Part shown: piece by piece, positions 6,409 through 55,634 of the stretch
Layout: every line of letters begins with the position of its first letter
Position numbering within the stretch: the stretch's first letter is position 1
Assembly: GCF_018623055.1 (NCBI RefSeq)
Contig: NZ_CP076019.1
Coordinates: forward strand, 310,001 to 374,000
Direction: 5' to 3'
Source of the DNA: Halorubrum sp. 2020YC2
Lineage (GTDB): Archaea; Halobacteriota; Halobacteria; Halobacteriales; Haloferacaceae
DNA length: 64,000 nt
Position numbers and translations under genes: made by a program
The notes under the pieces: generated by a model
Database searches by the model: none
The model's input: the letters and a program-made list of their open reading frames with translations, nothing else
Told to the model about the DNA's origin: nothing

Positions 6409-6730
6409 GCGGTGGCGCGTGCCTGCGAGTGGCCGCCGAAGGCGGCCGCGGGGAGCACGCGCGAGGGAGTCGGCCGACCGTAGGGAGGCCGACGAGGCTG
6501 GGGAGGCGTGAGGTGCGGTCGCTGTGCGGTGCGGGCGGGACTCAAAGGGGCAGCCGCGAGGGCGAAGCACGGCGATGTAAGGACCGCAGGGAGCGAACGA
6601 AGTGAGCGACTGAGGACCGTGGTTCGAGAGAGCAAAGCTCTCTCGTCATCACGAGACGCCTTCGGCGTCTCGAACGACAGCGAGCCGCACGAGTCCTCGC
6701 GGCTGGGGCTTTGGCGGTGGTCGCCGCAGT
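6409..6730 (+). ncRNA. Structured intergenic element, copy A
   Basis: Copy A of the seven-member family. It begins GCGGTGGCGCGTGCC. Hairpin 1 is closed by GCGCGTGC and GCACGCGC, and hairpin 2 has GTCGGCC/GGCCGAC. The long stem pairs 6551-6561 with 6695-6705. Outside it are GGG (6548-6550) facing GGG (6706-6708), then CAAAG (6543-6547) paired with CTTTG (6709-6713). The loop of the long stem is enlarged by two extra hairpins (GAGAGAG-CAAAG-CTCTCTC and CGAGACGCC-TTC-GGCGTCTCG). It has one tail unit and is followed by the gene at 6807 on the same strand. Whether it is an RNA gene or a mobile repeat is not settled. Confidence 0.6.
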
Positions 6731-10443: not shown

Positions 10444-10865
10444 TATAAATCGTGTCTGATGGTATCGCCGTGAACACCGCTAAAGCCCCAGCCGCTTGCT
10501 AATAAAGAGATGCTGGCGGATCGACGGCGAACACCGCCAAAGCCCCAGCCGCTTGCTAATAAAGAGATGCTGGCGGCTCCGCGGTGAACGCCTCCAAAGC
10601 CCCAGCCGTGAGGGCCGCGCACACTCGTTGCGCTCCTTGCTCGTTCGCTGCCGCTCACTCGCTGCGGTGCTTACGTCGTCTGCGCGGCCCTCACGGCTGC
10701 CCCTTTGAGTCCCACCCCACCCGCACAGCAACCGCACCTCACGCCTCCCCAGCCTCGCGGCTCACGCTTCGCGGCTTCGCCGCTCGCGTTCGCCGCGTCC
10801 CTCGCGCGTGCTGTCTCGCGGCCGCCGAGGGCGGCCGCTCGCAGGCACGCGCCGCCGCACCGCGT
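10444..10865 (-). ncRNA. Structured intergenic element, copy B, with 57-base tandem tail
   Basis: Copy B reads on the minus strand from about 10865. Its long stem is a perfect 19-base pair: 10603-10621 against 10681-10699, flanked by CAAAG/CTTTG and a three-base spacer. The loop of hairpin 1 is CTC, between GGCCGCC and GGCGGCC. The tail is tandem: units containing CAAAGCCCCAGCC (plus strand) start at 10472, 10529 and 10586, exactly 57 bases apart, each with an AT-rich AATAAAG stretch. A TATA-like TTTATAA flanks the head (10871-10877) and an ATAAAT the tail. It lies upstream of the rhomboid gene in the same orientation. Confidence 0.6.
10472..10642 (-). repeat. 57-base tandem units in copy B
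   Basis: Two complete units and the start of a third begin at 10472, 10529 and 10586. The first two are nearly identical; the third merges into the long stem of the element. Confidence 0.85.
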
Positions 10866-29610: not shown

Positions 29611-29982
29611 GCGGTGGCGCGTGCCTCCGAGTGGCCGCCACCGGCGGCCGCGAGGAGCACGCGCGAGGGAGTCGGGCGCTCCGAGGGCGACCGGAGGGAG
29701 CCCGCAGGATGCGCCCGACGAGGCTGGGGAGGCGTGAGGTGCTGTGCGGTCGCGGTCGGGTGGGACTCAAAGGGGCAGCCGCGAGGGCGAAGCACGGCGC
29801 AGCAAGTACCGCAGCGAGGGAGCGCTAGCGACCGAGCGAGGAACGCAGCAAGCCGCGCGAGCCGTCGGGGCTGGGGCTTTGGCGGTGTTCGTCGTCGATC
29901 CGCAGTCGACTATTTATAAGAGAGCGGCTGGGAATTTGGCGGTGGTCGCCACCGATCCGGGATCGGTCATTTATAAACAAAC
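29611..29982 (+). ncRNA. Structured intergenic element, copy C, with two tail units
   Basis: Copy C begins GCGGTGGCGCGTGCC at 29611. Hairpin 1 has GGCCGCC-ACC-GGCGGCC with a GA/GA internal loop, and hairpin 2 is long (GTCGGGCGC ... GCGCCCGAC). The CAAAG-GGG-CAG side pairs with CTG-GGG-CTTTG, although the upper stem has mismatches (GCCGTCGGGGCTG). CTGGG-containing tail units start at 29871 and 29928, 57 bases apart, and end in TTTATAA and TTTATAAACAAACG. The head is preceded by GATATTTAAAAACAA. It lies between PHP (divergent) and the gene ending at 30025 (convergent). Confidence 0.6.
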
Positions 29983-31853: not shown

Positions 31854-32241
31854 TTGTCGGTCACACGCCTCCGAACATCGACTACCCACCTAAATCCTCC
31901 CTTCCGCGGAGCGTTCGCGCGGAACAAAGCCGGGCGACGCGGCGGAACCCGCGTCGGATCGGAGTGCGACACGTCGTCCGTTCCGACACACAAGAACACG
32001 CTTAAGAACCCCGACGGCGACTTCGCATACGGGAACAGCACAGCTGCAGATCCGACGTGCCGAGGGCCTCTTCGCCCGCGGCTTGGGAATGTAGCAGTGC
32101 GCTGACGCCTCCGGCGTCGCGGTCGGGCGGTCCGCTCGCGCGGGCCGTCCGGTCGGACACGCTCGGTCCGCGAGCGGTCCGTAGCCGCGCCGCGCGGAGT
32201 CGCGGTCACGTTGCGGTTGTGCCGTTCCAACCAGACAGACA
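31854..32241 (+). promoter_or_regulatory. Divergent region with a possible long leader of rps15
   Basis: The only good plus-strand TATA element is CTTAAGAA near 32000-32007, about 240 bases before the rps15 ATG. No TATA is visible at the leaderless position. Between them are GC hairpins, for example GACGCC-TCC-GGCGTC (32106-32120) and a GGGCGGTCC ... GGGCCGTCC repeat. This suggests a ~210-base leader or a separate small RNA; no protein frame is convincing. Confidence 0.4.
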
Positions 32242-35130: not shown

Positions 35131-35540
35131 GCGGTGGCGCGTGCCTGCGAGCGGCCGCCACCGGCGGCCGCGAGGAGCACGCGCGAGGGAGTCGGCGGTC
35201 CGGAGCGAAGCGGAGGGCCGCCGACGAGGCTGGGGAGGTGAGAGGTGCGGTGCTGTGCGGTGGGGGGTGGGGCTCAAAGGGGCAGCCGGGAGGGCGGCGC
35301 AGGCGACGTAAGCACCGTAAGGAGCGAGCAGCGCGAGCGACTGAGGAGCGCAGCGAGCGTGCGCCGCCCTCCCGGCTGGGGCTTTGGCGATGTTCGCGGT
35401 CGATCCGCAATCGGTTATTTATGAATGAGCAGCTGGGACGTTGGCAGCGTTCTCCACCGATCCACCGGCCGCTATTTATAAGAAATCGATTACGTATTTG
35501 GCGGAGTCCATCGCCGATCCGCTCACAACGACTTATAAAC
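35131..35540 (+). ncRNA. Structured intergenic element, copy D, with three tail units
   Basis: Copy D begins GCGGTGGCGCGTGCC. Its long stem is a perfect 19-base helix (35283-35301 with 35360-35378). GGG (35280-35282) faces GGG (35379-35381), and CAAAG (35275-35279) pairs with CTTTG (35382-35386). Hairpin 1 is GCGGCCGCC-ACC-GGCGGCCGC with a GA/GA step; hairpin 2 is GTCGGCGG ... CCGCCGAC. Tail units start at 35376, 35433 and 35490, exactly 57 bases apart, increasingly diverged, with ATTTATGAA, ATTTATAAG and CTTATAAAC near their ends. It lies between rps3ae and a convergent acetyltransferase gene. Confidence 0.6.
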
Positions 35541-48795: not shown

Positions 48796-49060
48796 GCGGT
48801 GGCGCGTGCCTCCGAGCGCCCAGCGGGCGCGAGGAGCACGCGCGAGGGACGCCGCGAACGCCCGGAGGGCGTGAGCGGCGAGGTTGGGGAGGTGTGAGGC
48901 TGCGGTTGCGGTGCGGGGTGGGACTCAAAGGGGCAGTCGCGAGGACGAAGCACGGCGACGGAAGCACCGCATCGAGTGAGCGGAGCGAACGAGCGAGGAG
49001 CACAGCAAGCCGCGCGAGTCCTCGCGGCTAGGGCTTTGGCGGTGTTCACCGCGGTGGCAG
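48796..49060 (+). ncRNA. Structured intergenic element, copy E
   Basis: Copy E begins GCGGTGGCGCGTGCC at 48796, 6 bases after TTTATAAACA (48781-48790). Hairpin 1 uses a different inner stem, GCGCCC-AGC-GGGCGC, with CTCC/GGAG below a GA/GA loop. Hairpin 2 is CGCCGC ... GCGGCG. CAAAG (48926-48930), GGG, and CAGTCGCGAGGAC (48934-48946) pair with GTCCTCGCGGCTA (49018-49030), GGG and CTTTG (49034-49038). There is a single tail. It lies between mutL (divergent) and an ABC ATPase gene (convergent). Confidence 0.6.
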
Positions 49061-55349: not shown

Positions 55350-55634
55350 TTATAAACAATCGATACTGGATCGACGGAGGACACCTCCAAAGCCCCAGCC
55401 GCGAGGGCTCGGTGCGCTCGCTGCGGTCCTCGACCACTCACTTCGTTCGTGGTCTGCGGTCCTTGCGTCGCGCGCCTTCGCCCTCGCGACTGCCCCTTTG
55501 AGTCCCGCCCCGCACAGCACCGCAACCGAACCTCACGCCTCCCCAGCCTCGTCGCTGGCGGCACTAGCCGCCAGCGACTCCCTCGCGCGTGCGATTCGCG
55601 CCGCGTTGCGGCGCTCATCGGCACGCGCCACCGC
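55350..55634 (-). ncRNA. Structured intergenic element, copy G
   Basis: Copy G reads on the minus strand from 55634 (GCGGTGGCGCGTGCC). Hairpin 1 has its own inner stem GCGCCGC-AAC-GCGGCGC with GAT/ATC below a GA/GA loop, all different from the other copies yet paired. Hairpin 2 is GTCGCTGGCGGC-TAGT-GCCGCCAGCGAC. In plus coordinates the long stem pairs about 55396-55408 with 55480-55492, flanked by CAAAG and CTTTG. TATA-like sequences flank the head (TTTATATAC, 55640-55648) and the tail (TTATAAACAATCG, 55350-55362). It lies upstream of the GST-like gene and divergent from the FAD oxidoreductase. Confidence 0.6.

Follow-up and report, generated by a model that had tools for sequence, protein, structure and literature searches.

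A widespread folding repeat of haloarchaea that keeps one hairpin shape while its letters change

The question raised by this locus is whether a long hairpin in Halorubrum sp. 2020YC2 is preserved for its pairing rather than for its sequence. The DNA analysed, hereafter referred to as the window, was a stretch of 64,000 nucleotides (positions 310,001 to 374,000 of the forward strand of NZ_CP076019.1, in assembly GCF_018623055.1), which is part of a 3.06-Mb single-contig genome. The first-pass annotation of the window claimed that two copies of a repeat, B and D, had perfect 19-base stems of different sequence, with the seventh and fourteenth pairs swapped between copies and pairing kept. It attributed this to selection for pairing or to a copying mechanism.

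A three-hairpin intergenic element

The observation was confirmed, and the coordinates given for it were exact. The stems of copy B (10603-10699, minus strand) and copy D (35283-35378) were both perfect over 19 bp and differed in sequence: pair 7 was T-A in B, G-C in D and C-G in the other window copies, whereas pair 14 was C-G in B and G-C in D. In 51 copies from the same genome, pair 7 was C-G in 38, G-C in eight and T-A in five, with no mismatch, and pair 12 displayed four Watson-Crick types plus G-T. However, pair 14 was a standard pair in only about 64% of the Halorubrum copies, since in 61 of 218 it was G.A next to A.G at pair 15, which defined a second stem subclass with tandem G.A mismatches. 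A covariance model identified six copies in the window, and CAGCCNNGAGG occurred 9 times against 0.8 expected.

The hairpin corresponded to the 3' domain (P3) of an intergenic repeat of ~260 nt with three hairpins, whose full length showed 86-87% matches in the same genome and in relatives. The features of copy D and the remaining window copies were as follows:

35131-35386 (+), whole core element (copy D), comprising P1, P2, a purine-rich linker and P3
35097-35109 (+), TTTATAA box (TATTTATAAATAG) in the left flank, about 25 nt upstream of the element
35137-35184 (+), P1 hairpin GCGCGTGC..GCACGCGC with a bulged C, three covarying pairs and usually tandem GA/GA mismatches
35191-35225 (+), P2 hairpin GTC..GAC, highly variable in sequence and exchanged between copies as a module
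35226-35264 (+), conserved G-rich linker beginning GAGGCTGGGGAGG
35265-35267 (+), G-tract 1
35269-35271 (+), G-tract 2, separated from tract 1 by one variable base, T or C
35275-35279 (+), lower stem, 5' arm CAAAG
35280-35282 (+), G-tract 3, the 5' side of the GGG/GGG internal loop
35283-35301 (+), upper stem, 5' arm (the 19-base helix)
35305-35316 (+), conserved apical internal-loop strand GACGTAAGCACC
35343-35357 (+), conserved apical internal-loop strand GAGGAGCGCAGCGAG
35360-35378 (+), upper stem, 3' arm
35379-35381 (+), G-tract 4, the 3' side of the internal loop
35382-35386 (+), lower stem, 3' arm CTTTG
35387-35540 (+), right flank of degenerate 57-bp tandem units, each with TTTATAA or a relic of it and a degenerate copy of the GGCTGGGGCTTTGG end
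6533-6717 (+), copy A, P3 module
10591-10717 (-), copy B, P3 module
29758-29885 (+), third copy in the window, P3 module
48916-49042 (+), fifth copy in the window, P3 module
55384-55510 (-), sixth copy in the window, P3 module

P1 harbored three freely covarying pairs (GAC/GTC, TGC/GCA, TCC/GGA, GGT/ACC, TTC/GAA and others) next to the tandem mismatches, which were found as GA/GA 112 times, with no TC/TC among the loop types listed. P2 was of the GTC..GAC or CGC..GC types. In the lower stem of P3, the variable pair was A-T in 201 copies, G-C in 11, G-T in three and A-C in two, and the C-G pair found in Halorubrum was G-C in other genera. This stem was followed by the exact GGG/GGG internal loop and by the long stem, a 10-20 bp helix of arbitrary sequence closed by conserved apical loops. 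In some genera (loci labelled L301-L305 and L310-L321), a second apical type (CAGCGACCCCTATC..GATATGTCGCTGAGCGACC) replaced the usual GACGYAAGCACC/GGAGCGCAGCGAG loops, while the G-tract base was kept. Moreover, short palindromic modules (e.g., GCCGGCGGCTTCGCCGCCGGC and GAGAGCAAAGCTCTC) were nested inside the hairpin loops of copies such as that at 6533-6717 and loci L007, L176 and L324.

Immediately upstream of the lower stem, the GGG-Y-GGG tracts were strongly conserved in 218 copies, with 97-98% G at each of the three positions of tract 1 and 98-99.5% in tract 2, although both lay outside the search anchor. The anchor search biased tracts 3 and 4 and, in other genera, all four tracts. However, five of six true homologs from other families, which were fetched by BLAST rather than by a G-tract pattern, kept both upstream tracts. 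Four G-tracts of at least three are, in this way, conserved in a strand-specific fashion. As for the flanks, the 57-bp tandem units occurred to the right of most copies, with TTTATA at +30, +87 and +144 and a copy of the element's own 3' end, and in some loci (e.g., L015, L025 and L026) the units were near identical within a locus but differed between loci. An exact TTTATA box was found within 40 nt upstream in 45 of 175 copies.

Pairing is selected on one strand

The first-pass annotation had called for a phylogeny-aware covariation test on all copies. Such a test was performed on 205-218 distinct copies from the same genome, from a second Halorubrum genome (G051) and from other Halorubrum, using an R-scape-like null in which Fitch substitutions were re-placed at random on the tree. 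Since trees of short repeats with recombination are rough, two were used. With a tree built from sequence other than the stem, pairs 4, 7, 9, 10, 12, 13 and 14 exceeded all 400 null sets, and pair 7 reached G=241 against a null mean of 11.7 and a maximum of 51. Because hairpins might travel as units, the test was repeated on a tree built from P3 itself, which is conservative. In this case, pairs 4, 7, 10, 11, 12, 13 and 14 exceeded all 300 null sets, pair 9 was reached by 2 of 300, and pair 7 presented G=233 against a null maximum of 78, with 33 Watson-Crick to Watson-Crick double events.

Across genera the support was stronger still. In 52 copies from other genera, the stems were unrelated in sequence, yet positions 1-13 were paired in 90-100% of copies (91% over 14 positions, against 31-41% in slid registers), with several pair letterings at nearly every position. 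A class-wide alignment of 20 sequences gave a consensus fold of 31 pairs, 23 of them with double changes, and a covariation score of 0.633 against 0.161 for shuffled and 0.055-0.094 for slid alignments. The covariation at helix pairs is, in this way, above phylogenetic expectation.

The interpretation of the first-pass annotation was supported, with selection for pairing as the main cause and a copying mechanism operating in part. Strand-symmetric copying between the arms predicts equal numbers of G.T and A.C intermediates, but these were counted as 69:20 on one tree and 67:19 on the other, and without pair 4 the first count was 42:19 (p=0.004). The conserved GA/GA mismatches and the GGG/GGG loop sit inside otherwise perfect helices, where conversion should erase them. 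In addition, the interior of P3 kept its orientation in 205 of 210 orientable copies, so arm-to-arm recombination is real but rare; inverted interiors were found in five copies, two in the same genome (793225, L081; 842910, L084) and the others at L119, L212 and L242. Exchange between copies is real too. At 11 orthologous sites in G051, P2 (0.849) and the linker (0.932) were no more alike than in random pairs (0.864 and 0.928), whereas the upstream flank was (0.819 versus 0.739). At those sites, the outer 13 pairs of P3 showed 112 unchanged, 19 double, 5 G.T and 7 single changes.

Distribution, mobility and candidate identities

The genome carries about 100 copies, with at least 81 exact copies of the 13-base anchor and 145 matches in all with one mismatch, some of them by chance. 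An apparent run of copies all on the plus strand in the right half of the chromosome was judged an artefact. The anchor was found almost only in Halorubrum records. However, the core pattern GGGNGGGANTGAAAGGGGC occurred in 214 of 291 Halobacteria genomes sampled, from one to more than 120 copies, with almost no control matches, and in none of the other classes sampled; a covariance model found it in no genome sampled outside the order. Forty-five haloarchaeal plasmids of some 21 genera carried it, nearly always with no annotated feature. No match was found in phage records, and IMG/VR had none of the pattern GGGYGGGACTGAAAGGGGC, which does not support a virus-borne origin. In several other genera, copies occurred as head-to-head pairs 18-26 bp apart, the two arms of these dyads being unrelated in stem sequence.

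At the S3Ae-GNAT site, the element was present in several relatives, absent in others and internally deleted in one. In comparison with G051, most copies in collinear regions were shared by position and a few were strain-specific, so movement is slow. No transposase, target duplication or clean empty site was established for the core element itself. A few full-length copies presented extra inverted ends of the TAGCGGGAGTGRGT type, and some lay inside IS6-like MITEs with the ITR GGCTCTGTTGAAATCC and 8-bp target duplications (L272, L273, L277, L282 and L288), an assignment that rests on ITR and duplication length only. These outer elements carried many unrelated, non-transposase cargoes, the two ORFs tested as a possible autonomous partner had no Pfam match, and most copies of the repeat had no such ends, so they are carriers and not the element. 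Y1 and TnpB loci were located. Five genomes with roughly 60-110 pattern matches each (labelled G019, G016, G056, G043 and G082) had no Y1_Tnp match at E<=0.001, which argues against current dependence on a Y1 (TnpA) transposase, although only against current dependence.

Searches for other identities were negative. No Rfam 15 family reached its threshold at the element, at gathering or relaxed settings, the best hits being far below gathering scores; the only Rfam match in the window was an S15-Halobacteria ribosomal protein leader at 32029-32100 (+). No tRNA or tmRNA was found. A cis-regulatory or terminator role was not favoured, since no orientation preference relative to flanking genes was detected, albeit with a crude gene caller. 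Topic searches and a search for the literal sequence in 5.39 million open papers, which leave out subscription papers, returned nothing relevant.

Among described systems, the PATEs (palindrome-associated transposable elements) and SMRs of Haloquadratum walsbyi (PMC3119063) are also short, non-coding, multi-copy haloarchaeal repeats with palindromes and strain-specific presence, and other small repeats nest inside their palindromes, much as the modules mentioned above nest inside the hairpin loops of this element. PATEs have near-terminal palindromes similar to those of IS605-type transposons, and no G-triplets around a free-sequence stem were described in the passages of that work considered here. 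Bacterial REP sequences and REPINs (PMC3116915, PMC2817692) share the intergenic hairpins with a conserved foot, the hundreds of copies and, sometimes, head-to-head pairs at fixed short spacing. However, REPs are 20-40 nt long, are RAYT-associated, and have conserved stems and, in two large families, a GTAG or CGTC tag (PMC3733652), whereas here the stem is free in sequence, no such tag was found, and the hairpin is 73-250 nt long with a GGG/GGG loop. Structured RNA families of Rfam 15 resemble the element in having a consensus fold with many covarying pairs and conserved internal loops.

What may recognise the fold

The analysis itself established that one strand is under selection to fold (a conclusion held with high confidence), that copies persist at orthologous sites in some relatives and are present or absent in others, and that copies share sequence with each other as much as with their orthologs, so that hairpin modules are exchanged. 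The remainder is inferred, including any function. In the reading favoured here, to which a rough probability of 0.45 may be given, P3 belongs to a high-copy, non-autonomous, slowly mobile intergenic repeat whose folded single strand, either ssDNA exposed at replication or transposition or an RNA, would be the form recognised by a trans-acting protein. The stem would be only a scaffold, so its letters would drift while pairing is kept. The element would work like the archaeal PATE or bacterial REP type of repeat, as a parasite or commensal moved in trans at a low rate by an enzyme yet to be identified. Mobility at a low rate is considered somewhat more likely than not.

It was also inferred, with less certainty, that the four G-triplets stack as a three-tetrad quadruplex between the two helices, which would be favoured by the very high cellular potassium of haloarchaea. 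This is suggested by the conservation of the tracts only and is about as likely as not, the energies computed with ViennaRNA being uninformative because this software cannot model a quadruplex with a ~95-nt hairpin in one loop. A bolder and less probable possibility is that of a class-wide haloarchaeal module, with GGGTGGGACTGAAAGGGG-stem-GGGGCTTTC as its minimal form, in which GGG-Y-GGG and the two strands of the internal loop build the quadruplex, sandwiched between two covarying helices, carried in up to well over 100 copies per genome and working as an RNA or ssDNA in a cytoplasm of very high potassium.

The main rival is a class-wide structured non-coding RNA with many gene copies per genome, which would be transcribed from the TATA-like boxes beside the element and act in trans through its G-rich hairpin and apical loops. 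RNA-like features are in its favour, such as the G.U intermediates, the tandem GA/GA, and the conserved apical internal loops among covarying stems, as well as the TTTATAA boxes and the conservation over the class. However, this reading remains rather unlikely in view of the scarcity of exact upstream boxes, the 18-26 bp left between heads in head-to-head pairs, the about 100 divergent copies per genome, the lack of orientation bias to genes and the few inverted interiors, and it rests on sequence alone. A DNA-level structural site (cruciform, G4 or protein site) for chromosome organisation, replication or recombination, kept because its location or number matters, would agree with the intergenic, orientation-neutral placement, the positions often shared between species and the head-to-head dyads. 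Nevertheless, it is considered improbable, since the strand asymmetry of the intermediates points to one folded strand and copy number runs from 0 to more than 120 between related genomes, unlike an essential chromosomal site. Least likely is the preservation of pairing by gene conversion or template switching between the arms without selection: the inverted interiors show that arm-to-arm events happen, and whole hairpins are exchanged between copies, but the excess of G.T intermediates, the mismatches and GGG/GGG loop that escaped conversion, and the 98% fixed interior orientation speak against it.

Halobacteria are model archaea, yet a repeat present in most of the genomes sampled, in up to more than 100 copies each, seems to be unannotated and is absent from Rfam. 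It provides a natural, highly replicated test of how selection keeps a fold while sequence drifts, with strand-specific intermediates. If the quadruplex is real, it would be one of the best conserved natural quadruplex-duplex junctions, in cells whose potassium content favours it.
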